From assembly GCF_015709455.1 (NCBI RefSeq), contig NZ_JADNQW010000005.1:248001-312000 (forward strand): DNA of 64,000 nucleotides, read 5' to 3'. Positions 16,343 through 59,826 of this stretch are shown here, one piece after another. The first letter of the stretch is position 1; each line of letters begins with the position of its first letter. The DNA is from Methylosinus sp. H3A (GTDB taxonomy: Bacteria > Pseudomonadota > Alphaproteobacteria > Rhizobiales > Beijerinckiaceae). Position numbers and translations under genes: made by a program. The notes below the pieces were generated by a model. It saw only the letters and a list, made by a program, of their open reading frames with translations, had not been told where the DNA came from and did no database searches.

Positions 16343-16774
16343 TCAGGCGGCCGCGATATAGGCGCGCAGCTCCTGGCGCTCGGCATCGATCTCGTCGATC
16401 CGGCACTTGACCACATCGCCGATCGAGACGAGGCCGGCCAGACGCCCGCCGCGCAGCACCGGCAGATGACGGCGACGCTCGATCGTCATCGCCTCCATCG
16501 TCTTTTCGAGCGTATCGTCTTCGGCGATCGACATGGGATCGGCGGTCATGAAGCGCGCGACCTCGTCGCAGAGCGCTTCGACGCCGCAACGGGCGATGGC
16601 GCCGACGATGTCCCGCTCGGTGATGAGGCCGACGACCTCGTCATCGGCGTCGACGACGACCAGCGCGCCTATGCCGCGGCGGGTCAATTCCTCCGCCACT
16701 TGGAGCAATGTCCGCCCGGGGGCGATGGTGACGACCTCCGCCCCCTTGCGGGCGAGTATTCGGGCGACGTTCAT
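16343..16774 (-). CDS. CBS-domain-pair protein
   Basis: This 143-residue protein consists of two CBS domains, the first around GIGALVVVDADDEVVGLITERDIV and the second around RRRHLPVLRGGRLAGLVSIGDVV. CBS pairs bind adenine nucleotides and act as energy sensors or tethering modules. With no other domain, it probably acts in trans on an unknown partner. It is convergent with the patatin gene. Confidence 0.9.
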   Translation of the reverse strand: MNVARILARKGAEVVTIAPGRTLLQVAEELTRRGIGALVVVDADDEVVGLITERDIVGAIARCGVEALCDEVARFMTADPMSIAEDDTLEKTMEAMTIERRRHLPVLRGGRLAGLVSIGDVVKCRIDEIDAERQELRAYIAAA

Positions 16775-16802
16775 TTCGAAATCCCTCCCCTCTCGCTATC
16801 GA

Positions 16803-16851
16803 TCGATCTGCTTCTTATCGAGCTGCTTCTTGTTATCGAGCTGCTTCTTGG
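16803..16851. repeat. 18-bp tandem repeat across the rhomboid stop codon
   Basis: On the minus strand the unit CAAGAAGCAGCTCGATAA occurs twice in full and then once in part (GAAGCAGATCGAT). The TAA of the first copy is the stop codon of the rhomboid gene, so the remaining copies lie in its 3' untranslated region, before the CBS gene. Confidence 0.8.
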
Positions 16852-17624
16852 CCTCCGTCACGCCGGCGGTCGAATGCGCCGAACAGCAGCAGGCCCGCCG
16901 CGAAGCCCCCGACATGCGCCTCCCAGGCGATCTGCTCGGTCGACCCCGCCGCCCCGGGGAACAGGCCGAAGATCAGATTGACGGCGAACCAGATCCCGAC
17001 GAAGGCGATCGCGCGCCGGTTGGACCAGAGCTCGGCGAGGCTCGACGCTCGACGCGACGCCTGCGGCGCGGCAAACTCCGCATCCTGGGCGAATGCGAAA
17101 CGCGCGCTCGCCGCCATGGTTCCCGAGATCGCCGCCGAGGCGCCGACGACGGGGCCGAGATCGAAAGGATGGATGGCGAGATGAGCCGCCGCTCCGGCGG
17201 CCGCCGTCAGCGCCAAGAAGGCCAAAAACCGAACTGCTCCGAAACGACGCGCCAAGGGCGAGCCGAAGGCCGCGAGCGTCACGCCATTCACCGCGAGATG
17301 CGTCCAATTGGCGTGCAGCAACGCATAGGTCACGAAGGTCCACCAGGGCAGGCGCTCGGCGCCGATCGCCGCCGCGACGTCGCTCGCCTCCACTCCCGGC
17401 TCCAGCTGACCGGCGATCGAGCTCATGAAGGCGTCGGGCGCAAGAACGAAGGATATCCGTCCCGGAATGAAGGCCAGCGCCGAAAAAACCTCGGCGACAG
17501 TCGCCCCCGGCAAGGCGCCGAGCGCGAATTGAATCGCCGCCAGCGCCACGAGCAACCCCGTGACCTCACGGGGCAGATTGAGGATTTTCTCCCTGCCGGG
17601 ACGCGCCTCGGACCGCTCGTTCAT
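16833..17624 (-). CDS. Rhomboid-family intramembrane serine protease
   Basis: The 263-residue protein has six or more hydrophobic segments. Rhomboid marks are HANWTHLAVNGVTLAAFG (the HxxxN-type helix), the nucleophile serine in VVGASAAISGTM, and the catalytic histidine in EAHVGGFAAGLLL near the C-terminus. Rhomboids cut membrane proteins within the bilayer. The ATG at 17624 with a GAGAG just upstream is preferred; the longer frame adds 60 unrelated residues. The stop codon lies in an 18-bp tandem repeat. Confidence 0.88.
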   Translation of the reverse strand: MNERSEARPGREKILNLPREVTGLLVALAAIQFALGALPGATVAEVFSALAFIPGRISFVLAPDAFMSSIAGQLEPGVEASDVAAAIGAERLPWWTFVTYALLHANWTHLAVNGVTLAAFGSPLARRFGAVRFLAFLALTAAAGAAAHLAIHPFDLGPVVGASAAISGTMAASARFAFAQDAEFAAPQASRRASSLAELWSNRRAIAFVGIWFAVNLIFGLFPGAAGSTEQIAWEAHVGGFAAGLLLFGAFDRRRDGGQEAAR

Positions 17625-17787
17625 CTCTCGCCAGTCTCCGCTCGCCGAAGCCGCCCGCCTTCGCGTGGTTACCGATTCCTTGCCGCTGGCATGCGGCCTG
17701 CTCTTCAGCTCTCGCCGCTCGGGGGCGGGCGGCAGGGCGCGCCGATTCGACGCAAAGTCCTCAACGATACGCCGTTTTGGAAACAAA

Positions 17788-18384
17788 ATGAGACACAAGG
17801 TCAACCAGCAACTCTACGCCTATTGGAGCCGCTTGAAAGGGGCGCGGTCGGCGCCCGAGCGGTCCGAAATCGACCCGGCGGAAATTCGCGAGGCGCTGCC
17901 CGATTCCTTCATCATCGAAATCGACGAAGCGGGCCGCTTTCCGATACGGCTGTGCGGCACGCGGCTGAACGCGCTCTGGCTCGACGAGCAGAAAGGGAAA
18001 TCCTTTCTCGATCTGTGGTCCGCCGACGACCGCCGCACGCTCGCCTCCGTCATGCTGACCGTCATAGACGGGGTGGCGCCCGTCGTGGCCGGGGTCGAGG
18101 GACGAGCCGGCGAGGAAGGCGATATGTTGGAGCTCGAACTGCTTCTTCTGCCGCTGCGTCATTTCGGCAAGACGCATTCCCGCGTTCTCGGCGCTCTCGC
18201 GCCCGCGCGCCGGCCGCGCTGGCTCGGCGTCGCGCCGGCCAATCCGTTGCGACTGAAATCCTTTCGCGTCATCGCGCCGAGCGAGGCGCGATATCGCCTG
18301 CCGGAGCCGACCGGCCGACGAGTGGTGCGCCCCGCAGCGGCGGGACGCCCGGAGCTCGTTCTCTATCGGGGCGGAAAAGCCTGA
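17788..18384 (+). CDS. PAS-domain protein of the alphaproteobacterial PAS_5 type
   Basis: This 198-residue protein is a single divergent PAS domain plus a basic C-terminal tail. Typical features are the start MRHKVNQQLYAYWSRLKGAR, PDSFIIEIDEAGRFPIRLCGTRL, and the closing ELLLLPLRHFGKTHSRVLGAL. The family is widespread in Hyphomicrobiales and its function is unknown; small-molecule sensing is usually assumed. Confidence 0.75.
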   Translation: MRHKVNQQLYAYWSRLKGARSAPERSEIDPAEIREALPDSFIIEIDEAGRFPIRLCGTRLNALWLDEQKGKSFLDLWSADDRRTLASVMLTVIDGVAPVVAGVEGRAGEEGDMLELELLLLPLRHFGKTHSRVLGALAPARRPRWLGVAPANPLRLKSFRVIAPSEARYRLPEPTGRRVVRPAAAGRPELVLYRGGKA

Positions 18385-18388
18385 CTGG

Positions 18389-18415
18389 GAGCGCGCCCCG
18401 TCGAGGGGCGCGCTC
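18389..18415. terminator. Perfect hairpin between convergent genes
   Basis: GAGCGCGCCCC and its exact complement enclose a 5-base loop between the stops of the PAS gene and the SmbP-like gene. No U-tract follows on either strand, but the position suggests a bidirectional terminator. Confidence 0.5.
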
Positions 18416-18428
18416 GAATTGGCGAAGA

Positions 18429-18764
18429 TTACGGCGCGACCTGCTTGAGCTCGGCGTCCGCGGCCGTCGCATGCTCGGCGGCCTGCGCGAGATGGTTCTG
18501 GCGGGCCTCTTCGATCGCGGCCTTCAAATGGACGATCGCAGCGGCGAGATGCGCGTCCGGCTTGAACTTCTGCAGCGATTCCGCCTTTTCCAATGAGAGA
18601 TCGGCATGATAGGCGAGCAGCCCAGTGTCCTTCAGCTTGACCTGGGTGATCGCCTCCTCCGCGTGCCGGAGGGCCTGATCGAGCCGGTCGTCGGCGCGGG
18701 CCAGGGTGGAGGCGAAAAGCGCGCCGCCGAAAGCGAGCGTGAGAGCGGCGGTTTTGAACTTCAT
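18429..18764 (-). CDS. SmbP-like small periplasmic metal-binding protein
   Basis: This 111-residue protein has a signal peptide ending near TLARA and a mature part that is entirely amphipathic helix. His recurs in HAEEAI, YHADLS, AHLAAAIVHLKAAIEEA and NHLAQAAEHATAADAE, the pattern of the copper-binding SmbP of Nitrosomonas. SmbP-type proteins bind Cu and other divalent metals in the periplasm. His density is lower here than in classical SmbP, so the metal role is probable, not proven. AGGAAAC upstream supports the inner ATG. Confidence 0.65.
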   Translation of the reverse strand: MKFKTAALTLAFGGALFASTLARADDRLDQALRHAEEAITQVKLKDTGLLAYHADLSLEKAESLQKFKPDAHLAAAIVHLKAAIEEARQNHLAQAAEHATAADAELKQVAP

Positions 18765-33988: not shown

Positions 33989-34579
33989 TCAGCGCGACGC
34001 GGCCTCCCGGCGCGGACGGCAGAATTCCCGCGAGGCGTCGGTCCAGGCGCCGAAGCCGCTGGCGATCATATTCGCGATGACCGAGCACACATAGGTTTTT
34101 TGCGCCAGCGCATTGTTGGGCCCGGCGTGATAGCGCGCGACGGCGGCCGTCCAGGTTCCCTCCCGCTTATGCAGATCCTTGAGGAAACGCGCCGCGTAAT
34201 CGACATTGGCGCGTGGATCGAACATCGCCTCCACGCTCGCGAATCTCGCGCCGTGATAATGATGATTGACCTGCATGCAGCCGATGTCGATGAGCACGGC
34301 GCCGGATCGCCTCGCCGCGAGAAAGCGCATCATCGCCTCGCGAAAATCCGAGCTGAAGACCGCGCGTCCTTGCACATTCATCGCGAAGGCGTTGAGCGCG
34401 CCCTTCTGCCCCGTCTCGGTGAGCGCCACGGCATAGAGCACCGCGAGAGGGACCGCATTCTCATTCGCAGCGCGGATCATCTCCCTTTCGCAAATATTGG
34501 AGGTCCGCCCGCCCTCGGCTCGCGCCTCACAGATAGACGTCGCCGCCACGACGATCAGCGACCCGCCGAGTCTCGCCAT
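33989..34579 (-). CDS. Lytic transglycosylase (SLT domain)
   Basis: The protein has about 196 residues when started at the ATG at 34579, which gives a signal peptide (RLGGSLIVVAATSICEARA). The ATG at 34642 (217 residues) has a better ribosome-binding site. The catalytic Glu lies in YAVALTETGQ, with DIGCMQVNHHYHG and VARYHAGPNN as the rest of the SLT motif. It probably opens peptidoglycan for the rod, as FlgJ here lacks such a domain. Its start overlaps the end of fliK by 53 bases or more in another frame. Confidence 0.85.
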   Translation of the reverse strand: MARLGGSLIVVAATSICEARAEGGRTSNICEREMIRAANENAVPLAVLYAVALTETGQKGALNAFAMNVQGRAVFSSDFREAMMRFLAARRSGAVLIDIGCMQVNHHYHGARFASVEAMFDPRANVDYAARFLKDLHKREGTWTAAVARYHAGPNNALAQKTYVCSVIANMIASGFGAWTDASREFCRPRREAASR

Positions 34580-37500
34580 TCGACCCAGGCTCGTTGGTCT
34601 CGCCGCCGGCGCCTTGCCTGCGATCTCCCCCCTGTCCGCCATAGCCCGCTCCCTGTCGACCGACGCTTTGCTCGTCGCGACCGGCTCCCGCTCCGCCCGA
34701 TTGCGCAAAGCCAGCTCCGCTATCGGGCGTCGCTTGCGCATTGCCGCCGTCCGCAGCGTTCTGTGCGATCTGGATCGTGCAGGAATCGACGGAACAGCCG
34801 GACGATTGCATCGCCTCGACGAGCTGATCCCGCGTCGAGTCGAGGCGCCGGAGCGCCTCCGTCGATGCGACGCTGATGTGCATATCGATGCCCGAATGCG
34901 CCAGCTTCATTTTGACGACGACCGCGCCGAGCGTCGCCGGCTCGAGCTCGATCGTCAGAATTTTTGGCGCGACGCTCTGACGTTGCGCTTCGACGCCGGG
35001 AGCCGTGATGGCGGCCGCGGACGGCGCAGCGCGCGTCATGGAAGCGGTGGCGATGAGGCTTCGCGCCTGCGGCGCGAGTAGTTCCGCGAAAGCCGACGGC
35101 AATTGCGTCGGAGGAGCGAGAATGGCGAGCGTTCCGATCGGCTCCGGCGCGGCTTCCGTTCTCGACGCCTCGTTCGCCGAAGCGTCGCTCGCCGCCGCGG
35201 AGATATTCATAGCGTCGAGCGGCGCGTCCGCAGGAGCGCGGACATTGTCCCGCGTCTCGAAAATCGCGGGCGTCGCGTCGATAGAGGACGCTTGTCGTCC
35301 ACCCGTCTGCGCGACAGGGTGGCTGTCCGATCCGCGAACGCCATTCGACAAAGAAGCGACGTCGACGCCGCGAGCGACCGCTGGCGGTTCGGCGATAGCG
35401 GGAAACGAATCGAAAGACCCCGCAGCTGCGCGATCTCGAGTCGGCGCGGCGACAACCGTCGCCGCAACCGAGGCGTCGATGGAGCGCTCAGTCGCCCGCG
35501 GCGTGTTGTCGAGGGCGACGTTCGAGGCCGCCACGGCTGACTCCGAAACCCGGAGGGCCGATTGCTGTCGCGCGAACTCCTGCGCCGTGCTCGACTCCAC
35601 GACACTCGGAGCGCTAGGAGGCTCGGCGCGTGATGCGGAGGAGATGCGTCGCCCGTTATCGCCGCCTGGCGCCGACGGCCCCCATCCATTCGATGGCTGC
35701 GGATCGGACATGGCGACGGCGATCGAAGACTCCGTGAGTGGTGGACGCCGTTCGTCCGCAGAGCGGACGACGGTCTCGACGAAAGAGGATCGGTTGATCG
35801 GCGCGATCGGATCGGACACCGCGCTCGCAGACGCTCCGCCTCGCGTCGGTATCGTAAACGCCTCCGATACCGGCGGCGTCTCGATCGGCGCCGAGCGTCG
35901 AGTAGCGACGCCGGAATCCGTCGACGCCGGATCGTCGATCCTGGCGCGTTCCGCGACAGCAGCCGGACGCGCCGATGCTTCCCATTGCGGCTCCGCGGAG
36001 ACCGCATCCTCTGGCGCAGCGATCGCCGCACCCGCGACCGCATCTGCGAATGAAAGACCCGGCCGCGCTTCGTCTGCAGCCGATCGCGCATAATCCCCCG
36101 TCGACGCGCGAATGGCGCCGCTCGATGCGCCACGCAGATCGAAAGGCGCCGGCGCCGATCCGGCGCGAGCTGTTGCGGCATAGGGCGTCGAAGAGCCGAC
36201 GTCGTATTGCGCTGCCGGCGCGACAAAGTCCTGCCTCTGAGCGGGAGCCGATCCCGCGTTGGCCGATACGCTCCGCGGCTCGAAGGTCGAGCTCTGGCGC
36301 TCCTCACGAGCAGCGGCTGCATCGGGCGTGGAAGCCGCCGCCGCGCCAGCGCGCAGCGTCGATGAGCGATCATCAGTCGAAATCCCAGAGCTCGCAGCGA
36401 CGCGAGTCTGCGCCGATGCGTCGCTCCGCAGGTCATAGGGCGAGAATCCGTCTCCGCCCGCAGCCGCTTCGGCGCGCAGAATCGAAATACGTTCATCACG
36501 CGAGATCGCAGGGCTCACAGCGGTCTGCGTCGGCGCCGATGCAGGCGCGGTCGCAGCGCTTCCACCGCTCCGCAGATCGAACGGCAAGAACGCGCTTGCC
36601 CCTTGGTCGAAGTTCGCGCGCCCTATGGTCTCTGGAACGTCGAGCGAAGGCGTCGGATTTCCTGAATCCCGCATCTGCGCCCAATCAGGAACCGACGAAG
36701 ACGAGAGGCTCCGCAAATCGAATGGAGTGAATGCGCTTTCCTCATGAACCATATCGGCGCGCCGCGTCGACGACCAAGGCTCGGGCGAACCCGCCGGGCT
36801 CGCACGTTCCTGCGTCTGAACCGAAGATGGCGCAACTTGCGACGCAGCGACGCGCTGCGCCATAGCCGCGGCGTCAGCCTCTGGGGCGGACGCCCGAAAA
36901 TCCTGGCTCTGCGTCGGAGCCGCGACCATCGTTGTCGACGCATTCTGCAGATCGAATGAAGCAATTGTGTTTCGTTCGCGAGAAGCGTTCATATTATTCG
37001 CCGAGGACGCGACATCGGCCGGGATCGCTGCGCTCGTCGCCGCCAGTGTCCGAGGCGGGACGGCGGAGGTCGTTGGCGCGGATGCTTCGCTAGCCGGATT
37101 GGCTGACCAGACTACGCCATCGAATGACGGTATGGAAGGCTCGACAGTCTGCGCTCGAGCCGCAGCCGATATGCTCCGCCGGTCGACTGCGGAGACCAGT
37201 CCTCCGTCATCCAATTGCGCTGCACGCAGCGTCGAAGGCGCTGCATCGAACTCCTGTCGAGGAGCCGAAGCGGAAACCGTCGCTGGTGACACGCTTTGCA
37301 GTTCGAACGAGGAGACCGCGCGGTCTCGTGTTGTCGCCGCGAAAGTCGCCTCGCTGGACGATATCCGATCCGATGGCGACCTTTCGAGCGCTTTCGCCGG
37401 CGTCGGCGAATTCGTCTCGGTCGTTCGTCGATCGTCGTATGACACTGCGGATGTCCGATCGGCGCCGTCGACGCTCGACGCAACTCCGCGATCGACCGTG

Positions 37501-38873
37501 AACGCCGCGCTCTGCCCGCCACCGGACGGCATTCCACCACGCGCATCGGCGTTCGAACGGCCGCTCGGAACAACTACGACTTCAGAGTGAGCGACAGGAT
37601 CGCTGAAGGCGGCGGCAGACGCTCTGGAGGTTCCGACCTCGACATGGACGTCGCTCGCGCGTGATGACGTCGAACCTTGCGCCGACGGATCGGCGGACGC
37701 CGGGATCGCCGTGACCCATGCCGATTGCCGCGCGACGTCGGCGCTCCGATCGACGGTCTCGATCGGCGACGACTCGGCTTCGTCGATATCAGGCGCGCGC
37801 CAAATCGCAGCATCGCCGATGAATGCCGTCGCTGCGAGCGGCTCTCGCGCCGCCGTGCTCGAAGACGGCAGAGCCGCGACCTGCGCGACCGAAGCGCCGC
37901 CCAAATCCGCGGTCGTGGCGACATCGACTTCTTCGACGCCAGTCGAAGCAGAGTCGCGCTCTCTCGAGCTTGCGATGTTCGTCGAGGGCGCGACTGCGAT
38001 CCGAGCGAATGCCGAATCGTTCTCACGTCTCGAAAGCGTCGTCGCGGAAAACGTCGAAGTCGCAGACTCGGGCGAAGGCCTATTCGACCTCGGCGGCTCG
38101 GTCGAGGGTTGCGCCGATGCGACAGGTGATCGTCTCGAGGCGACGTAGGAAATCACACCCGGCGCCTGCGCCGAGCGTGTCGTTGCATTCGACGTCGAAG
38201 CCACGGATAGGCCGACGCTCGAAGGGAGAGTCTGTCCGCTGACGTCGTGAGTGGATTGCCGCGACGAAGCTAGATCTGGCGTCGTCGCCTGCGGAGCGTC
38301 GAGCGACGATCGTGACGTAGCCGCCGTCGTCCCAGTCGAGCCACGGCGATCATCGTCGACGGCGCCCATATTGCTCGCAAATGTGGACGGCGAAGGCGAG
38401 ATCGCGGCGGCCGACGGAGCGTATCCATCGGCGACCTGCGCGCCGCCTTCGATTTGCATCGCGCTCCCCTGGCCGCCATTCGGCGCAGGATCGCCCGTCG
38501 AGGCAACGGATTCGATTCGGGATGGGGCCGGGCGCGGATTCGTGGATGGCGGCCAATTCAAGTCGAAGACCGGGACAGCGACGAAAGCTTGCATCGTGGA
38601 CGGCGGATTGCTCGTCGCGTCGGCGACGGCCGCATCATCGGCGGCCGGCCGCTGGTGGGGATGTTCGTCGGAGGCGGCGATCGTCGCGGCCGAGGAAGCG
38701 GCGGACGCGGCGCGAGCGGTGGGAGCGCTCCGATCGTCGAGATCGGAGAGAAGCGAAGCGAATTGGCGTCCATCCGCGCCGTCCGAGTCGCGTTGGCCCT
38801 GCGAAGCCGCGTCGGTCTGATGGCCGAGCAGACGCCCAGTCGCCAGATTGGAGAAAAGTGCGTCGAGTGTCAT
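34527..38873 (-). CDS. fliK: Giant flagellar hook-length control protein FliK
   Basis: This is a 1448-residue protein; typical FliK is about 400-650. The C-terminal substrate-switch domain is at about residues 1310-1380 (ILTIELEPATLGAVVVKMKLAHSGI and HISVASTEALRRLDSTRDQLVEAMQ). A Gly-rich tail follows. The rest is Ser/Ala/Thr-rich and probably disordered. From about residue 520 to 915 a motif F-x-P-[FY]-[DE]-L-R-S recurs, with five copies spaced about 48 residues. FliK acts as a ruler and triggers FlhB. It follows motC with a 4-base overlap. GC-rich codon use fits one real gene. Confidence 0.9.
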   Translation of the reverse strand: MTLDALFSNLATGRLLGHQTDAASQGQRDSDGADGRQFASLLSDLDDRSAPTARAASAASSAATIAASDEHPHQRPAADDAAVADATSNPPSTMQAFVAVPVFDLNWPPSTNPRPAPSRIESVASTGDPAPNGGQGSAMQIEGGAQVADGYAPSAAAISPSPSTFASNMGAVDDDRRGSTGTTAATSRSSLDAPQATTPDLASSRQSTHDVSGQTLPSSVGLSVASTSNATTRSAQAPGVISYVASRRSPVASAQPSTEPPRSNRPSPESATSTFSATTLSRRENDSAFARIAVAPSTNIASSRERDSASTGVEEVDVATTADLGGASVAQVAALPSSSTAAREPLAATAFIGDAAIWRAPDIDEAESSPIETVDRSADVARQSAWVTAIPASADPSAQGSTSSRASDVHVEVGTSRASAAAFSDPVAHSEVVVVPSGRSNADARGGMPSGGGQSAAFTVDRGVASSVDGADRTSAVSYDDRRTTETNSPTPAKALERSPSDRISSSEATFAATTRDRAVSSFELQSVSPATVSASAPRQEFDAAPSTLRAAQLDDGGLVSAVDRRSISAAARAQTVEPSIPSFDGVVWSANPASEASAPTTSAVPPRTLAATSAAIPADVASSANNMNASRERNTIASFDLQNASTTMVAAPTQSQDFRASAPEADAAAMAQRVAASQVAPSSVQTQERASPAGSPEPWSSTRRADMVHEESAFTPFDLRSLSSSSVPDWAQMRDSGNPTPSLDVPETIGRANFDQGASAFLPFDLRSGGSAATAPASAPTQTAVSPAISRDERISILRAEAAAGGDGFSPYDLRSDASAQTRVAASSGISTDDRSSTLRAGAAAASTPDAAAAREERQSSTFEPRSVSANAGSAPAQRQDFVAPAAQYDVGSSTPYAATARAGSAPAPFDLRGASSGAIRASTGDYARSAADEARPGLSFADAVAGAAIAAPEDAVSAEPQWEASARPAAVAERARIDDPASTDSGVATRRSAPIETPPVSEAFTIPTRGGASASAVSDPIAPINRSSFVETVVRSADERRPPLTESSIAVAMSDPQPSNGWGPSAPGGDNGRRISSASRAEPPSAPSVVESSTAQEFARQQSALRVSESAVAASNVALDNTPRATERSIDASVAATVVAAPTRDRAAAGSFDSFPAIAEPPAVARGVDVASLSNGVRGSDSHPVAQTGGRQASSIDATPAIFETRDNVRAPADAPLDAMNISAAASDASANEASRTEAAPEPIGTLAILAPPTQLPSAFAELLAPQARSLIATASMTRAAPSAAAITAPGVEAQRQSVAPKILTIELEPATLGAVVVKMKLAHSGIDMHISVASTEALRRLDSTRDQLVEAMQSSGCSVDSCTIQIAQNAADGGNAQATPDSGAGFAQSGGAGAGRDEQSVGRQGAGYGGQGGDRRQGAGGETNEPGSNGETRRVADRRGGDVYL

Positions 38874-40030
38874 CGGCGCGTCGCCCGCTGAAGCAGCGCG
38901 TCGGCGTCGCCCAACGCCTGACGTGCGGAACGCTCGACCGTCGAATCGGATCGCGCCTCCTCGGACTCTGGCGTCGCTGGCGCGGCGGAAGACACTCCGT
39001 CCGAGGCGCCCTGAAGACGGCCGATCGCGGCGATCACGATATTGCGCACCTCGATGTCGGCCGAAGGCAAAATCCGCGAGTCGATTTTTTGAAACTCCGC
39101 CTCGGCCGTCTCGAAGTCGCCGGAAAGACCGGCGAGCGCGGCGCGATAGAGCTCGACGCGCGCGCGCCCGGCAGGGGAATCGACGAGCGGTCCGGCATAT
39201 TGCGTTTCAGTCGTCGCCAAAGCGACACGGCCATTGAGAATGGCGTTACGGGCGACGCTCATATGTGTCTCGAAGCGCAGGCCTGGCGACGCGCCCTTCA
39301 GCATCGCTCGAAATTCTCCGAGGCGAGGATTGTCGCCGATAGCGGCGGCGCGCAAAGTCGCGGCGCGCATTTCATCCCAATAATTTCGAGAGAAAGGCGA
39401 CTTTGCGTATTGCGCCCCATAGCGGCGACCGAGCACCAGAAATTTATTCGGATCCTGGCCCACGTCGACGATCGACATCTCGCGACGCAAGGCCGCCTCC
39501 TCGACGAGCGAACTCGGCATCAGCAGACGCGCGAGATCGAACAAATCGCGCGCCTTCGCCTTATCGGAGGCAATCAGCAATCCGCCCTGTATCAGCGCCA
39601 GATGCGCAGCGAGCGTGTCGGTGAGGGCTCGCGCGTCGATCGGCGCCAGCAGCTTGGCGGCGTCTTCGCTACGTCCTTCGGCATAGGCGACAGCGCCCGC
39701 GACGAGCCGCGTGTCGGTTTCTGGAATGAGATGCGCATCGAGGACTTTGCGGATGGAGCGGGACGGGCCGCCGCAGAACAAAAAGATCGCCGCAGCCGCG
39801 GAGTTGCTCTTTTCTTTCCACGCCTCGCCGTCGAGGGACGCCACGATCTGCTCGATGCGCTCGATCTGCGCGGGGATCGCGCCGCGCGCGCCCGCAGCGC
39901 CTTGCACCATCGACCCTTGCAGCGTGTTGAGCGCCCTCACCTGCTCGGTGAGCTCTCCCGCTTCGGCGCCGGACGCGAGACGAATAATCAGGCCGATCGC
40001 CAAAATGACGACTTGCGCGGAATTCCTCAA
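38870..40030 (-). CDS. motC: Periplasmic motility protein MotC
   Basis: The protein has 386 residues with a TTG start at 40030. That start gives the signal peptide VVILAIGLIIRLASGAEA and has AGGAG 7 bases upstream; TTG overlaps the motB TGA as TTGA. The body is helical (RALTDTLAAHLALIQGGLLIASDKAKARDLFDLARLLMPSSLVEEAALRREM). In Sinorhizobium MotC binds MotB in the periplasm and is needed for rotation. Position between motB and fliK is the rhizobial order. Confidence 0.88.
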   Translation of the reverse strand: MRNSAQVVILAIGLIIRLASGAEAGELTEQVRALNTLQGSMVQGAAGARGAIPAQIERIEQIVASLDGEAWKEKSNSAAAAIFLFCGGPSRSIRKVLDAHLIPETDTRLVAGAVAYAEGRSEDAAKLLAPIDARALTDTLAAHLALIQGGLLIASDKAKARDLFDLARLLMPSSLVEEAALRREMSIVDVGQDPNKFLVLGRRYGAQYAKSPFSRNYWDEMRAATLRAAAIGDNPRLGEFRAMLKGASPGLRFETHMSVARNAILNGRVALATTETQYAGPLVDSPAGRARVELYRAALAGLSGDFETAEAEFQKIDSRILPSADIEVRNIVIAAIGRLQGASDGVSSAAPATPESEEARSDSTVERSARQALGDADALLQRATRR

Positions 40031-41136
40031 CGTTCGCTCCTGCGCAGCAAGATTTCGATGCGGCGATTGACCGCTCCGAGCGGCTCCTTTGGCGTCTTCA
40101 AGCGCCGGTCGGCGTAGCCCGCGATCTTCACCACGCGCTTTTCCGGAAAGCCGCCGCGCACGAGCATGTAATAAGCCATGTTGGCGCGATCCGAGGAGAG
40201 GCGCCAATTGTCGTAGGTCGCCGATTTATAGGAGCGTCCGTCCGTATGTCCCCGCAGTTCGATCTCGCCGCTCTGCTTGGCCAAGAGCTGGCCGATCTGA
40301 CCGATGATGCGCACCGCCTGCGGCCGCGGTTCGACGGAGCCGACCGCGAACATGGAGAAATTGGCGTCGTCGGTGAGGCTGATCAGCAACCCCTCCGAGG
40401 TCTCCGCGACTTCGACATGGGGCGCGGCGCGCAATGCGCCGCTCTCGGCCTTGACGAGCTTCTCCACCGCAGTCTTCATGCTCGCGGACGAAATGTCGCC
40501 CTTCTTGTCCTCGACGGACGGCGGAGCCGCGAGCGCCGAACGCGGGGGTTGCGCCGAAGCTTTGCCGTTGCTCTGCGGGGTCGACGGCGCCGGCTTGGCG
40601 CGCGGGCCCTCCACCTGCTCCACCGACGTCGCTTTGTCGGGCGAGCCATTGTCCTCGATGCGCTCGTCCACATAGCCGACGCCATGAGCGCTGCGATCGA
40701 AAGGATCGCCGAAAGACGAAGGTTGCGCAGATTTTCTGTCGATCTCGTCGAGCGTCGTCATCGGATCATAGAGAAGCGCGGCCTCGCGCTGCGGACTGTC
40801 CTTCTCCGAAGGGGTGGGCGGCGCAACGGCCGTCGCGCCCTTGTCCGGAGCCGTGCTGGGTTGTTGGCTCTTGCCCTGGCCGGCCTCCGCCGGATCACGC
40901 AGCCCCTTATGCGCGGGATTGGAGTCGATGAGCTGAACCGGGTTGAAATATTGGACGATCGCCGCCTTGGTTTCTTTCGACGTCGAATTGATGAGCCACA
41001 TCACCAGAAAAAAGGCCATCATAGCCGTCATGAAGTCCGCGAATGCGAGCTTCCAGACGCCGCCGTGATGACCCTCCTCCTCCTCGCCGTGCTTCTTGCG
41101 GATGAAGATGATCTCGCTTTCCTCGTGATCGCTCAT
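40027..41136 (-). CDS. motB: Flagellar stator protein MotB
   Basis: The 369-residue protein has one transmembrane helix with the proton-binding Asp in KLAFADFMTAMMAFFLVMWL. A Pro/Ser-rich linker (about residues 85-220) is followed by an OmpA-type peptidoglycan-binding domain (IELRGHTDGRSYKSATYDNWRLSSDRAN). The N-terminus is unusually acidic and His-rich (KHGEEEEGHHGG). It overlaps fliH by 4 bases. Confidence 0.95.
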   Translation of the reverse strand: MSDHEESEIIFIRKKHGEEEEGHHGGVWKLAFADFMTAMMAFFLVMWLINSTSKETKAAIVQYFNPVQLIDSNPAHKGLRDPAEAGQGKSQQPSTAPDKGATAVAPPTPSEKDSPQREAALLYDPMTTLDEIDRKSAQPSSFGDPFDRSAHGVGYVDERIEDNGSPDKATSVEQVEGPRAKPAPSTPQSNGKASAQPPRSALAAPPSVEDKKGDISSASMKTAVEKLVKAESGALRAAPHVEVAETSEGLLISLTDDANFSMFAVGSVEPRPQAVRIIGQIGQLLAKQSGEIELRGHTDGRSYKSATYDNWRLSSDRANMAYYMLVRGGFPEKRVVKIAGYADRRLKTPKEPLGAVNRRIEILLRRSER

Positions 41137-43574: not shown

Positions 43575-44486
43575 TCACTGGAAGAGCTTGAGGATGATCT
43601 GGCTGTTCTGATTGGCGATCGACAGGGACTGGACGCCGAGCTGCTGCTGCGTCTGCAGCGCCTGCAACCGCGTCGAGGCCTCGTTCATATCTGCGTCGAC
43701 CAGCGAGCTCACGCCATTGGTGAGCGCTTCGTTCAACGTCTTCACAAAAGCGGCCTGACCCGTGAGCGTCGTCTGCGTCGCTCCGATCTGCGCGGCGTAT
43801 TTGGTGAGGTCGGAGATCGCCTTGTCTGCGTTGGTCAGCGAGTCTGTGATGACCGCAGTCGAGGCGACATCGGTAGCCGACAAATTGGTCAAATCGGTCG
43901 CGGCCGTTGCGCCCGTGCCCTGAGCGACTTCGAGAATGCCGGCTCCGGCGGCGACGGCCGGCGACGCGCCGCCACCGCCGATCAATGCGGTCGCGGTGAG
44001 ATTGATCGTGTTCAGAGCGGACGCCGTGGAGCCGCCTCCGTCGGTGTAGGAGGCGATAAAAGCGAAGGACGCCTGCGAACCATCCAGAATATTGAGGCCG
44101 TTGAAACTCGCGGAGGCGACGATGCTCTTGAGCTGATTGCTCAATCCGGTGAGACTCGTGCCGATCTTGGCGGTGTCGGCGCCGGGCTGCGCCGCTTGCG
44201 CGACGGCCGATTTGATGTTGTTGAGCACCGAGATCGCATTGGTGACTGCGGTCTGGGCGATGTTGAGAAGGGACGAGCTCACCGCCATCGAATCGCCGAT
44301 CGTCGACAGCACGCCCTGATCGGACTTCATCGTCTCGGCGATCGACCAAGTGGAAGCGTTGTCGGTGGCGCTCGAAATCTTGAGACCCGTCGAGACTTCC
44401 TTCTGCGTGGTCGCAAGCGCATGCTGCGTCGACCGAAGCGATTGAAGGGCCGTGATAGCCGAGGGGTTAGTGAGAATGCTGGACAT
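43575..44486 (-). CDS. Flagellin 1
   Basis: This 303-residue flagellin has conserved ends: MSSILTNPSAITALQSLRST and NEASTRLQALQTQQQLGVQSLSIANQNSQIILKLFQ. These form the filament core. The middle is short and Gly/Ala-rich. It is nearly the same as flagellin 2; by eye about five in six residues match. Its leader shares a block with flagellin 2 (44528-44595). Confidence 0.96.
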   Translation of the reverse strand: MSSILTNPSAITALQSLRSTQHALATTQKEVSTGLKISSATDNASTWSIAETMKSDQGVLSTIGDSMAVSSSLLNIAQTAVTNAISVLNNIKSAVAQAAQPGADTAKIGTSLTGLSNQLKSIVASASFNGLNILDGSQASFAFIASYTDGGGSTASALNTINLTATALIGGGGASPAVAAGAGILEVAQGTGATAATDLTNLSATDVASTAVITDSLTNADKAISDLTKYAAQIGATQTTLTGQAAFVKTLNEALTNGVSSLVDADMNEASTRLQALQTQQQLGVQSLSIANQNSQIILKLFQ

Positions 44487-44527
44487 GACTCATCGATCCC
44501 TTTTGGGGTGAAACTAGTGACGAAAGG

Positions 44528-44595
44528 CATCCCGGAATTTCACCGGCTCGACGGAAACGGCATCATGCCTTTGGGCTGTGAAGCCCTATCCGAAG
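44528..44595 (-). promoter_or_regulatory. Conserved flagellin leader, copy 1
   Basis: On the minus strand this block runs from CTTCGGATAGGGC through GGCATGATGCCG (a palindrome) to GAGCCGGTGAAATTCCGGGATG. It matches the block 45761-45826 before flagellin 2 at most positions while the sequences around it differ. It may hold a promoter or a 5' mRNA element recognised by a regulator such as FlbT; both are inferred. Confidence 0.6.
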
Positions 44596-44761
44596 CAATC
44601 ATCGGCGGAGCGCCGCCACATCGCGGGAGCCAATCCACTCGACGACCCGTCGAAGTCCATCGGGACTCGACGGCTACAGCACAGCCTGCATGGTGGTTAA
44701 CCTAACTAGATAACCTTAATAAAGGTCTAAACGAGCAAAGCCTTCGCGGCGCGCGAACAAC

Positions 44762-44796
44762 AAAAAAGCCGCGCCCCGAAGGGCGCGGCTTCTTTC
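44762..44796 (-). terminator. Rho-independent terminator of flagellin 2
   Basis: On the minus strand AAGCCGCGCCC pairs perfectly with its complement around a TTCG loop and is followed by six T. It lies 26 bases after the stop of flagellin 2. Confidence 0.9.
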
Positions 44797-44816
44797 CGAA
44801 ATCGGGGAGTGGCGGA

Positions 44817-45728
44817 TTACTGGAACAGGCGCAGGATGATCTGGCTGTTCTGATTGGCGATCGACAGCGACTGGACGCCGAGCTGCTGTTGCGTCTGCAA
44901 CGCCTGCAGGCGCGTCGAAGCTTCGTTCATGTCGGCGTCGACGAGCGAGCTGACGCCGGCCGTCAGACTTTCATTCAGTGTCTTGACGAAGGCGGCCTGT
45001 CCATTGACGCTGGTTTGCGTCGCGCCGATCTTCGACGCATATTGCGTCAGATCCGCGATCACCTTATCGGCGTTCGACAGTGTGTCGGTGATCGTCGCGC
45101 TCGAGGCGACATCGGCGGAGGAGAGGCTGGTGAAGTTCGTCGCCGCAGTGGCGCCGGTGCCCTGAGCCACCTCCAATATGCCGGCGCCGGCAGCAACCGC
45201 CGGAGAGGCGCCGCCGCCGCCGATCAGCGCGGTCGCGTTGAGATTGATTGTGTTGAGCGCCGAGGCCGCGGTGCCGCCTCCGTCGCTATAGGACGCGATG
45301 GAGTTGAAGGTGCTGCGAGAACCGTCGAGCAGATTCAACCCATTGAAATTCGCCGAGCTGACGATGCTCTTGAGCTGATCGCTGAGGCCCGTGAGGCTGG
45401 TGCCGATCTTCGCCGTGTCCGCGCCGGGCTGAGCGGCCTGCGCGACGGCGGACTTGATGTTGTTGATGACCGAAATGGCGTTGGTCACCGCCGCCGTGGC
45501 GACGTTGAGCACCGAGGAGCTGACCGACAGAGAGTCGCTGATCGTCGAGAGAACTCCCTGGTCGGATTTCATCGTCTGAGCGATCGACCAGGTGGAGGCA
45601 TTGTCGGTGGCCGATGAAATCTTCAGGCCCGTCGAAATCTCCTTCTGGGTGGAAGCGAGAGACGACTGGACCGAGCGCAGCGACTGCAGAGCGGTGATGG
45701 CGGAGGCGTTGGTCAAGATGCTGGACAT
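44817..45728 (-). CDS. Flagellin 2
   Basis: The 303-residue flagellin has the same ends as flagellin 1 (MSSILTNASAITALQSLRSV and SLSIANQNSQIILRLFQ). The inner ATG at 45728 matches the flagellin 1 start; the longer frame is only leader. It has its own terminator and shares a leader block with flagellin 1, pointing to a tandem duplication that kept control signals. Confidence 0.96.
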   Translation of the reverse strand: MSSILTNASAITALQSLRSVQSSLASTQKEISTGLKISSATDNASTWSIAQTMKSDQGVLSTISDSLSVSSSVLNVATAAVTNAISVINNIKSAVAQAAQPGADTAKIGTSLTGLSDQLKSIVSSANFNGLNLLDGSRSTFNSIASYSDGGGTAASALNTINLNATALIGGGGASPAVAAGAGILEVAQGTGATAATNFTSLSSADVASSATITDTLSNADKVIADLTQYASKIGATQTSVNGQAAFVKTLNESLTAGVSSLVDADMNEASTRLQALQTQQQLGVQSLSIANQNSQIILRLFQ

Positions 45729-45760
45729 GACTCGTCGATCCTTGGATGAGGTGAACGCGA

Positions 45761-45826
45761 CATCCCGGAAATTCACCGGCTCGACGGAAACGGCATCATG
45801 CCTTGGGCGCCCTGCCCTATCCGAAG
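45761..45826 (-). promoter_or_regulatory. Conserved flagellin leader, copy 2
   Basis: This is the counterpart of 44528-44595, with the same CTTCGGATAGGGC, GGCATGATGCC palindrome and GAGCCGGTGAA stretches at the same distance class from the start codon (about 32-98 bases). Conservation beyond coding DNA suggests function. Confidence 0.6.
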
Positions 45827-54325: not shown

Positions 54326-54592
54326 TCAGAATCCCTTTTCGATACGCGAATACGCATAGTCGGTGAACGCCTGGATCTGCGCGCCGAGGAATGGCGCGGA
54401 AAGCCCGAGCGCGACGAAGATCACGACGATCTTCGGCACGAACGTCAACGTCATTTCCTGAACTTGTGTCAGGGCCTGTAGCAATGCGATCACGATGCCG
54501 ACCGCCATCGCCGCGCCGACGACCGGGCTCGAGACGACGAGCACGGTGAAGATAGCGCGCTGCATGATCTCGAGCGCGTCGGCCTCGTTCAT
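54326..54592 (-). CDS. fliQ: Flagellar export apparatus protein FliQ
   Basis: The 88-residue protein has two transmembrane helices (FTVLVVSSPVVGAAMAVGIVIALLQA and FVPKIVVIFVALGLSAPFLGAQI) and the typical LTQVQEMTLTFVPK link. It overlaps flgD by 4 bases. Confidence 0.95.
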   Translation of the reverse strand: MNEADALEIMQRAIFTVLVVSSPVVGAAMAVGIVIALLQALTQVQEMTLTFVPKIVVIFVALGLSAPFLGAQIQAFTDYAYSRIEKGF

Positions 54593-55005
54593 TGGCTTAC
54601 CGTGACGCCCGAACCGAGAGAAATGGTCGAACCGTTGGTGAGCGTCGCTGTCGCGCCGGAGCTCGTTGTCGACACCGAGGCGACGACACCGGAGACCTTG
54701 CCATCAGAGGACGATATGGTCTTTCCGATGAATGAGCTCGCCTGGGTGAGCAAATTCGAATTCAGGATCGACGTCAGCGTGGAATTCGTCTTGACCGCCT
54801 GCTCCACCGATGAAAATGACGCGAGCTGGGACACGGTTTGGGTCGGGTCCATCGGCTTCGTCGGATCCTGATATTTCATCTCCGTGACCAGCAGCGTCAA
54901 AAACTGATCATAGCCGAGCGTCTGCGTGGAGCTGCTAGATGACGTTGCGCTCGAATTCGTCGTCGCCGTCGCGTTGGTAACGGCCGTCGTTGAAGTCACG
55001 GTCAC
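54589..55005 (-). CDS. flgD: Flagellar hook cap protein FlgD
   Basis: The 138-residue protein is short for FlgD but has its core: LGYDQFLTLLVTEMKYQDPTKPMDPTQTVSQLASFSSVEQAVKTNSTL. The N-terminus is Thr/Ser-rich. It caps the growing hook. Confidence 0.93.
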   Translation of the reverse strand: MTVTSTTAVTNATATTNSSATSSSSSTQTLGYDQFLTLLVTEMKYQDPTKPMDPTQTVSQLASFSSVEQAVKTNSTLTSILNSNLLTQASSFIGKTISSSDGKVSGVVASVSTTSSGATATLTNGSTISLGSGVTVSQ

Positions 55006-58387: not shown

Positions 58388-59626
58388 TTACTTCAGATTG
58401 TTCAGCACTTGCATCACTTCGGACGCGACCTGGAACACTTGGCTGTTCGCGGTGAAGGAGCGTTGGGCGACAATCATGTTCGACAATTGAGTTGCGAGAT
58501 CGACCGTCGAACCCTCGAGCTGATCCGAGGCGATTGCGCCCATGCTTCCGGAATTCGCGTCGCCGAGATAGGCGGCGCCAGATTCCTTGGTGACGGCGAA
58601 TGTGTTGCCGGAGAGCGCTTGCAAATTGGTCGGGCTCGCCACCGTGCCGAGCGGGATCTTGTAGGCCGACACAGTCTGCTTATTGCCGAGCACATAACTC
58701 AGCGTGCCGTCCTTGTCGATGCTGACGCTGCTGACCTGGGAAGCTGCATTGCCGTTGATCGTCGGATTGGAGACCGAGAAAGACGACCCGAGCTGCGTCA
58801 ATCCGGTGAGATCGAGCGTGAGCGTGGAGCCATTGGGCACTGCGATCGAAGCGCTGGAGCCGCTCGTGATGCTGCCGTCAGTGGCCGAGAATGTCAGGGA
58901 CTGCGTCGTGAGCGCGCCGGACGAATAAGGGAAGCCGCCATTGGTCGCGGTCGAAGCGTCGAAGACCGACGCTTCCCAAGTGTTTGACGACGTCTTGGAA
59001 AAGTAGACGTCGAGCGTCACCGGATTGCCCAGATTGTCGTAGGCAGTGACGGATGTCTTCTTGGAATAGGTCGACGTCGACGCATTTGCGGAGGGAAGGT
59101 CCGCGGCCGCTATCGTCGCGGCGGTGGACGGAAGATTGGCTGTCAGCGAGCCTTCGGTGGAGGGGTTGCCGATTTCCTTGCCATAGGGAATGGTGATCGC
59201 TTGGAGACCCGACGGATCGGTAGGCGCGGCGGCGGCGGAAGAGCTGTAGCCCATGAGATAGTAGCCGGCCGTGTTGACGAGTCGGCCTTGCGTATCTCGA
59301 AGGAAGGAGCCCGCGCGAGTCAGATAGGTGTTGCCGGTCGAATCGGCGACGACGAAAAAACCGTCGCCTTGAATGGCGAGGTCCGTGGCCGACGTCGTGT
59401 TGAGCGTGGTGCCGGATTTGGTGACCTCGATGACATTGCTCGCGGCGACGCCGCCATCGGCATCGTTGCCGCCTTGAAAGCTCGTCAAGAGGGTCTGAAA
59501 ATGCGTGGTGGCTTCTTTATAGCCGACCGTGTTCGAATTCGAGATGTTTTCCGCGACCGCGCTGAGCGCCGTGGTCTGCGCCGACATGCCCATCACCGAC
59601 GTGTTGAAAAGCGCGCTCGCCGTCAT
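58388..59626 (-). CDS. flgE: Flagellar hook protein FlgE
   Basis: The 412-residue hook protein has MGMSAQTTALSAVAENISNSNTVGYKEATTHF at the N-terminus, LAIQGDGFFVVADSTGNTYLTRAGSF next, and DLATQLSNMIVAQRSFTANSQVFQVASEVMQVLNNLK at the end. GAAGGAACC precedes the ATG at 59626. It leads the long flgE-to-49573 operon. Confidence 0.96.
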   Translation of the reverse strand: MTASALFNTSVMGMSAQTTALSAVAENISNSNTVGYKEATTHFQTLLTSFQGGNDADGGVAASNVIEVTKSGTTLNTTSATDLAIQGDGFFVVADSTGNTYLTRAGSFLRDTQGRLVNTAGYYLMGYSSSAAAAPTDPSGLQAITIPYGKEIGNPSTEGSLTANLPSTAATIAAADLPSANASTSTYSKKTSVTAYDNLGNPVTLDVYFSKTSSNTWEASVFDASTATNGGFPYSSGALTTQSLTFSATDGSITSGSSASIAVPNGSTLTLDLTGLTQLGSSFSVSNPTINGNAASQVSSVSIDKDGTLSYVLGNKQTVSAYKIPLGTVASPTNLQALSGNTFAVTKESGAAYLGDANSGSMGAIASDQLEGSTVDLATQLSNMIVAQRSFTANSQVFQVASEVMQVLNNLK

Positions 59627-59826
59627 CTGTGGTTCCTTCATATCCGTGAGACTGGGGGATTAGAAGTCTCAAAGCTTGCGTGAGGCTGTCGGCTGCGCGC
59701 GAATGGGGCTTACGATGAAAACGGTTAACCTTGAAATAATCTCGTTCTCATATCTTACGCCTGCCGACGCGATGTTCGTGTTTTCGAGATTGGTCGGCGC
59801 AACCTGTCGATAGAGGGGCGTTCGCG

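Follow-up and report, generated by a model that had tools for sequence, protein, structure and literature searches.

How long does a flagellar hook become when the protein that measures it is greatly enlarged? This question is raised by fliK (motD in older alphaproteobacterial naming), the gene for the hook ruler and export-switch protein, in Methylosinus sp. H3A. We analyzed it within a 64,000-nucleotide stretch of contig NZ_JADNQW010000005.1 (positions 248,001 to 312,000), hereafter called the window. The reading that we favor, with moderate confidence, is that this gene encodes a three-part FliK whose spacer has grown by duplication and sets a hook far longer than usual.

Identity, domain plan and size of the Methylosinus FliK

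34527..38873, minus strand: fliK, 1448 amino acids (aa), ATG start, no internal stop
38736..38873, minus strand: N-terminal export region with a hydrophobic start (residues 1-46; function by resemblance)
38748..38762, minus strand: FASLL, candidate gate recognition motif (residues 38-42; by resemblance only)
35169..38723, minus strand: hypervariable ruler spacer, rich in A, S, P, T, R and D and poor in lysine and cysteine (residues 51-1235)
34758..34964, minus strand: Flg_hook (PF02120) core of the substrate-specificity switch domain (residues 1304-1372)

The open reading frame encodes a true FliK, which bears out a preliminary description of this DNA that had placed a giant one here. Its 1448-residue product matches Flg_hook with an expect value (E) of 1.3e-10 and 41.4 bits versus a cut-off of 29.8. 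This is the sole Pfam match in the protein, and the whole genome holds no second PF02120 match at E <= 0.001. The start of fliK overlaps the stop of motC as ATGA, likewise in all eight other full-length orthologues of the genus. The switch domain spans about residues 1240-1448. The last 213 residues were modelled with AlphaFold2 from 26 sequences; the model has an overall mean predicted local distance difference test score (pLDDT) of 66.6, with a confident core in which block means reach 84-92 over model residues 81-130. The top two Foldseek hits of this model among solved structures are the switch domain of PscP (5cuk; E 1.4e-3, probability 1.00) and FliK-C (2rrl; E 1.1e-2, probability 0.99). 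A sequence search with the whole protein against solved structures returned nothing at E <= 1.

At the other end of the protein, an F-x-x-x-L sequence follows the hydrophobic start in 9/9 full-length orthologues of the genus and in the FliK of G045, a member of the same order from a different family, with the Phe at residue 37, 38 or 41. Early export substrates of Salmonella require a hydrophobic N terminus and a gate recognition motif placed 30 or more residues into the protein, as in FlgD (36-FLTLL-40) (PMC8983047). By resemblance, the N-terminal layout of the Methylosinus protein thus fits that of the Salmonella export signals. The spacer between the two ends is probably disordered, as suggested by a single-sequence model of residues 700-960 (mean pLDDT 46.5), and its composition also points there. 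Lysine occurs once in 1158 spacer residues in the window, three times in 1236 in G008, twice in 1758 in G045 and up to 19 times in 1656 in G009. It makes up 1.4-6.5% of ten neighboring flagellar proteins, and its median is 3.6% in the middles of 38 other long FliKs. Cysteine is likewise almost absent from the spacers of the window and of the orthologues.

The protein had been put at two to three times the normal size, and at about 2.5 times the class median it falls within that range. Sizes were compared as stop-to-stop frames, which overestimate the real protein length, especially when a genome is rich in GC. A FliK match was present in 65 of 123 alphaproteobacterial genomes, the window's own included; the frames of the 64 others have a median of 590.5 (interquartile range 505.5-665, maximum 1201) versus 1559 for the window. 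In a sample of the phylum (match in 123/150 genomes), none of the about 150 matches listed exceeds 856 apart from the window, and in a sample of the family (295/397) frames reach 1071 among the matches listed, which do not include those of the genus itself. Among 60 relatives, 46 of them with a match, G045 has a frame of 2167, or 2048 aa from its likely start. This giant protein is 32% alanine, with five aromatic residues in its 1758-residue middle.

Within Methylosinus, FliK forms a length series. Counted from the start that overlaps motC, the nine full-length orthologues measure 472 (G007), 931 (G004), 981 (G001), 1309 (G005), 1372 (G002), 1448 (window), 1526 (G008), 1946 (G009) and 2091 aa (G003), and a tenth, in G006, is cut by its contig. 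The spread is 1.6-fold among close species and 4.4-fold across the genus; the short value of G007 needs a second look, as its assembly is fragmented (460 contigs, 86% complete). FliF in the eight other genomes with full-length orthologues is 80-95% identical to that of the window. A FliF tree groups the window with G001, G002, G004, G005 and G008 (support 100/99) and places G007, G009 and G003 outside, the branching within the six-member close clade being left open. The open frame of the hook protein, FlgE, is 423-479 aa in 10/10 genomes.

In all five close orthologues, FliK matches that of the window at 55-80% identity over its first 50 residues and at 63-88% over its last 200. Between these ends, pairwise identity in the close clade is 31-53% in global alignments and mostly 15-40% per 50-residue block, and G008 carries 171 extra residues inside one such block of the window's FliK. 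For the closest pair, G002 and G008, the nonsynonymous (dN) and synonymous (dS) rates are 0.348 and 0.516 in the middle (dN/dS about 0.67, rough because that region aligns poorly) and 0.047 and 0.207 at the C terminus (dN/dS about 0.23). By these ratios, the middle of FliK looks coding. Judged from the alignments, the ends of FliK are conserved and its A/S/P-rich middle is fast-evolving.

Repeats and a recurring motif in the spacer

36708..36731, minus strand: motif copy 1, FTPFDLRS (residues 715-722)
36567..36590, minus strand: motif copy 2, FLPFDLRS (residues 762-769)
36423..36446, minus strand: motif copy 3, FSPYDLRS (residues 810-817)
36270..36293, minus strand: motif copy 4, degenerate, SSTFEPRS (residues 861-868)
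36129..36152, minus strand: motif copy 5, first F missing, APAPFDLRG region (residues 908-915)
36942..36959, minus strand: weak copy SFDLQN (residues 639-644)
37293..37310, minus strand: weak copy SFELQS (residues 522-527)
36335-36419 and 36458-36542, minus strand: two stretches of 85 nucleotides (nt), 73% identical, a probable duplication remnant around motif copies 2-3

A motif had been described at about residues 714, 761, 810, 861 and 908, with weaker copies near 520 and 638. The positions hold, at spacings of 47, 48, 51 and 47 residues; the full motif is present in three copies only, the fourth and fifth being degenerate. FxP[FY]DLR matches at residues 715, 762 and 810, and not once in 300 shuffles. 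A looser pattern, [FY][DE][LIMP][RQ], gives seven matches (523, 640, 718, 765, 813, 864 and 911) versus 0.08 expected, and the first two of them correspond to the weaker copies. Both patterns were drawn up after the window gene had been seen.

That these copies mark 48-residue repeats holds for the motif, which recurs every 47-51 residues, and is not borne out for the rest of the units. The mean identity of five motif units is 33% at the protein level (24 ± 3%, maximum 30%, in 60 shuffles) and 49.8% at the DNA level (42.4 ± 2.5%, maximum 49.1%, in 40 codon shuffles). The best ungapped self-match of the protein pairs positions 146 residues apart and has a score of 97 (mean 62, maximum 90, in 60 local shuffles). 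In the same comparison, which among the rows listed covers the window, G001, G002 and G003, self-similarity reaches 1337 in G003 versus 272 in 25 shuffles. Three null results count against a spacer grown by duplication. Outside the motif, the five units are 27% identical, with no excess over shuffles (23 ± 4%, maximum 35%); Tandem Repeats Finder detects no array of about 48-residue size in the window's fliK; and self-similarity in G001 (57, shuffled maximum 69) and G002 (63, shuffled maximum 84) is not above shuffles. The strong motif copies, the 85-nt pair and the lack of an array together indicate a conserved motif that recurs, plus one or more duplications that are old but still recognizable, and no clean array of repeats. 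In our interpretation, an expansion took place long ago and has since decayed down to its motif.

Growth of the ruler by repeat expansion, as had been suggested, is seen more directly in the relatives. In-frame arrays with periods of 144-165 nt occur in three of the nine full-length orthologues: 147 nt (49 aa) in 9-10 copies with 85-88% matches in G003, 144 nt (48 aa) in 4.0 copies with 83% matches in G008, and 165 nt (55 aa) in 2.6 copies with 73% matches in G009. Outside the genus, G045 has an array of 117 nt in 2.8 copies with 90% matches. By eye, the array units of these four genes are unlike one another and unlike the window motif. In the window gene, the suggestion holds in part: the motif region (about residues 705-945) is about one fifth of a spacer of about 1,180 residues, so the visible repeats explain part of its size only, and the remainder is non-repetitive, fast-evolving and of low complexity.

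Among 40 other FliKs picked for their length, five have arrays (period of at least 36 nt, score of at least 100), with main periods of 39-123 nt (13 to 41 aa) and some longer multiples; repeat growth of FliK is therefore not confined to Methylosinus. The strongest of them, both proteobacterial, are those of G668 (L087; 123 nt, 7.5 copies, 95% match) and G635 (L085; about 90 nt, 8.5 copies). We rejected the idea that units of about 48 residues are universal and might follow the register of the hook lattice: the units measure 49 and 48 aa in G003 and G008, but 55 in G009, 39 in G045 and mainly 13 to 41 aa in the five others.

The motif itself may be a functionless old remnant of the clade, multiplied in the window gene by duplication and now slowly decaying. 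We regard this explanation as possible, if somewhat doubtful. The motif was not found in the FliKs of G001, a member of the same clade, or of G003, G007 and the outgroup G045; in the window, copies 4 and 5 of the regular five have degenerated, as have both upstream ones. Nor was the motif found in six further members of the family whose fliK frames were read, apart from a single FDIR within the switch domain of one; the one loose-pattern match in G009, at residue 94, looks unrelated. Against a mere remnant, FxPF[DE]LR or near forms are kept in four of the five close orthologues (two in G002, one in G004, two in G005 and three in G008), even though the whole middles used in this comparison are 33-38% identical to that of the window. 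The window's best 9-residue words are matched at 8, 6, 6 and 7 of 9 letters in G002, G004, G005 and G008, respectively, and at 4 or 5 in G001. When all 9-residue words of the window middle were scanned against the middles of the five close orthologues with weighting for rarity, the top three all came from the motif, with scores of 127, 126 and 120 versus a maximum of 97 over 20 shuffles. An unweighted scan also ranked the motif first, barely above low-complexity words (32 versus a shuffled maximum of 31).

FxPFDLR was also considered as a gate recognition motif (F-x-x-x-hydrophobic) and rejected, as the letters disagree. Salmonella FliK-N has FlgD and FlgE as binding partners, and good length control depends on a stretch of FliK-N (PMC6972891). 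By analogy, the FxPFDLR motif may have a role akin to these contacts.

Predicted hook length and competing explanations

58388..59641, minus strand: flgE, gene for the hook protein, the expected object of measurement by FliK; size ordinary, about 412 aa from its probable start at the sixth codon
24822..25895, minus strand: flhB, the export-gate protein, expected switch target of FliK-C

In the mechanism that we favor, FliK would be exported from time to time while the hook grows. The C-terminal domain could act on FlhB only after the spacer had extended across the hook channel, so that the number of spacer residues would set the point at which hook growth stops. The Methylosinus spacer would lengthen through tandem duplication of units of about 48-55 residues, always in frame, and shorten through their deletion. 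These units would diverge fast because selection would preserve little besides length, composition and a handful of short contact motifs, such as FxPFDLR in the window's clade. Salmonella FliK variants of 363-785 aa give tightly controlled hooks of 42-135 nm, with 0.2 nm per added residue (PMC6126814). Applied to Methylosinus, this calibration predicts a hook of about 264 nm in the window's species and of 68-392 nm across the genus.

Several points weigh against this reading. The calibration covers 363-785 aa, which makes the prediction for 1448 aa an extrapolation, and it rests on helical insertions, whereas the window's spacer looks disordered, so that the length per residue may differ. This, together with the question whether such long hooks could function, is the chief doubt. 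In Salmonella, the switch was impaired by a linker with 40 residues more than usual (PMC6972891). Long hooks cost Salmonella motility (PMC6126814), and selection against them is thus to be expected unless another flagellar arrangement relaxes it. In addition, the Foldseek search with the C-terminal model gave zero PDB matches at E <= 0.001.

The extra length might instead be neutral padding, the spacer being compact in transit or another limit, such as switch kinetics or the amount of hook protein, keeping hooks ordinary. We consider this unlikely, though it accounts for several features. The spacer looks disordered and not helical, by its composition and its poor single-sequence model; length varies more, by 1.6-fold between close species and by 4.4-fold genus-wide, than would be expected of a tuned trait; and the FlgE frame stays nearly constant throughout the series. 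Counting against padding, a protein could hardly compact in a hook channel of about 2 nm width. The linear rise of Salmonella hooks with FliK length, over the calibrated range, argues in the same direction (PMC6126814).

A more specific possibility, which we think distinctly improbable, is a graduated ruler. The FxPFDLR sites of this clade, which follow one another every 47-51 residues (at 0.2 nm per residue, about 9.6 nm), would touch the hook protein or the cap in turn during export, and duplication of spacer and site together would yield length-controlled hooks of about 160-390 nm. If so, natural hooks would exceed the range of 42-135 nm of engineered Salmonella (PMC6126814).

Finally, a sequencing or gene-calling artefact with an unreal frame in the middle, to which the third-position GC content of fliK (0.69, below most neighboring genes) and its weak codon-position contrast might point, can be dismissed as extremely improbable, given 1448 codons without a stop, a dN/dS below 1, and a start, ends, composition and in-frame motifs that recur in independent genomes.

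The flagellar cluster and known rulers

38870..40207, minus strand: motC, longest frame, with the ATGA overlap with fliK; NCBIfam PRK12798 models match at best E 8.7e-62, under their curated cut-offs
33989..34741, minus strand: lytic transglycosylase (SLT) gene downstream of fliK; its longest frame overlaps the fliK 3' end

Hook, rod and export genes accompany fliK in the same cluster. Upstream lie fliF, a gene in the place of fliH (named by place only, with no significant Pfam match), motB and motC; the motB-motC-fliK neighborhood is also that of rhizobia. Downstream, the SLT transglycosylase match recurs in 9/9 other loci of the genus. The same 64-kb window also contains flgE, flgK, flgL, flgD, flbT, flaF, flhA, fliR, flhB, fliP, flgI, flgA, flgG, fliE, fliG, fliN, fliM and flgH, where names such as flgG and flgL were given by domain content and place. 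The sixth-codon start of flgE is likely because three sister species (G002, G005 and G008) have a stop at codon 4 of the longest frame; this in-frame TGA was rejected as a real interruption, as it sits ahead of the likely true start.

Three further observations concern the window at large. The hook cap protein FlgD (54589-55005) has merely 138 aa and matches the N-terminal FlgD domain only. A tandem pair of similar flagellin-like genes, of 303 and 319 aa, occupies 43575-45776, the first being confirmed by Pfam. A 687-aa frame at 16533-18596, with 20% arginine and no Pfam match, is probably no gene.

The FliK family is known, and FliK of Salmonella (405 aa; engineered from 310 to 785 aa) shares with the window protein an N-terminal export signal (putative in the window), a spacer and, at the C terminus, a switch core from one and the same family; hooks become longer when residues are inserted into it (PMC6126814, PMC6972891). 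The window protein differs in being natural, 3.6 times as long and far past the tested range, with an alanine/serine/proline-rich, probably disordered spacer. Growth by repeats is known from YscP of Yersinia, whose size differs between strains according to how many internal repeats (14, 25 and 46 aa) they carry, needle length being linear in protein size (PMC3469391). YscP is by analogy the closest precedent for the growth of the Methylosinus protein, with two differences. It is an injectisome ruler of 452-538 aa in the strains named (PMC3469391), in contrast with a flagellar one of 472-2091 aa between species, and the arrays of Methylosinus FliK differ in sequence from species to species.

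The FliK (MotD) proteins of Sinorhizobium and Caulobacter are of ordinary size. They have the Flg_hook C terminus in common with the window protein (PMC8545394; Eggenhofer 2006, as cited there), and are not known to form a length series like that of Methylosinus. The giant FliK of G045 shares the very long low-complexity spacer and the F-x-x-x-L (at residue 38), and has its own 117-nt array; it is without FxPFDLR, and its growth was probably independent. Searches of an open-licence library listed no title on a giant FliK, on FliK repeat arrays or on Methylosinus hook length. Three features seem to be new: how large a flagellar ruler has become, how widely its size varies inside a single genus, and the conservation of the motif.

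Hook length is expected to alter buckling and flicking in polarly flagellated cells (PMC6126814). Its control and the evolution of its ruler have been studied so far with engineered Salmonella variants. Methylosinus offers a natural series of rulers, from 472 to 2091 aa, with conserved ends, a near-constant hook protein and visible duplications. The ruler model thereby becomes testable far beyond its calibrated range, with several-fold differences in hook length predicted between species, and the question arises why methanotrophs would tolerate or need such hooks.

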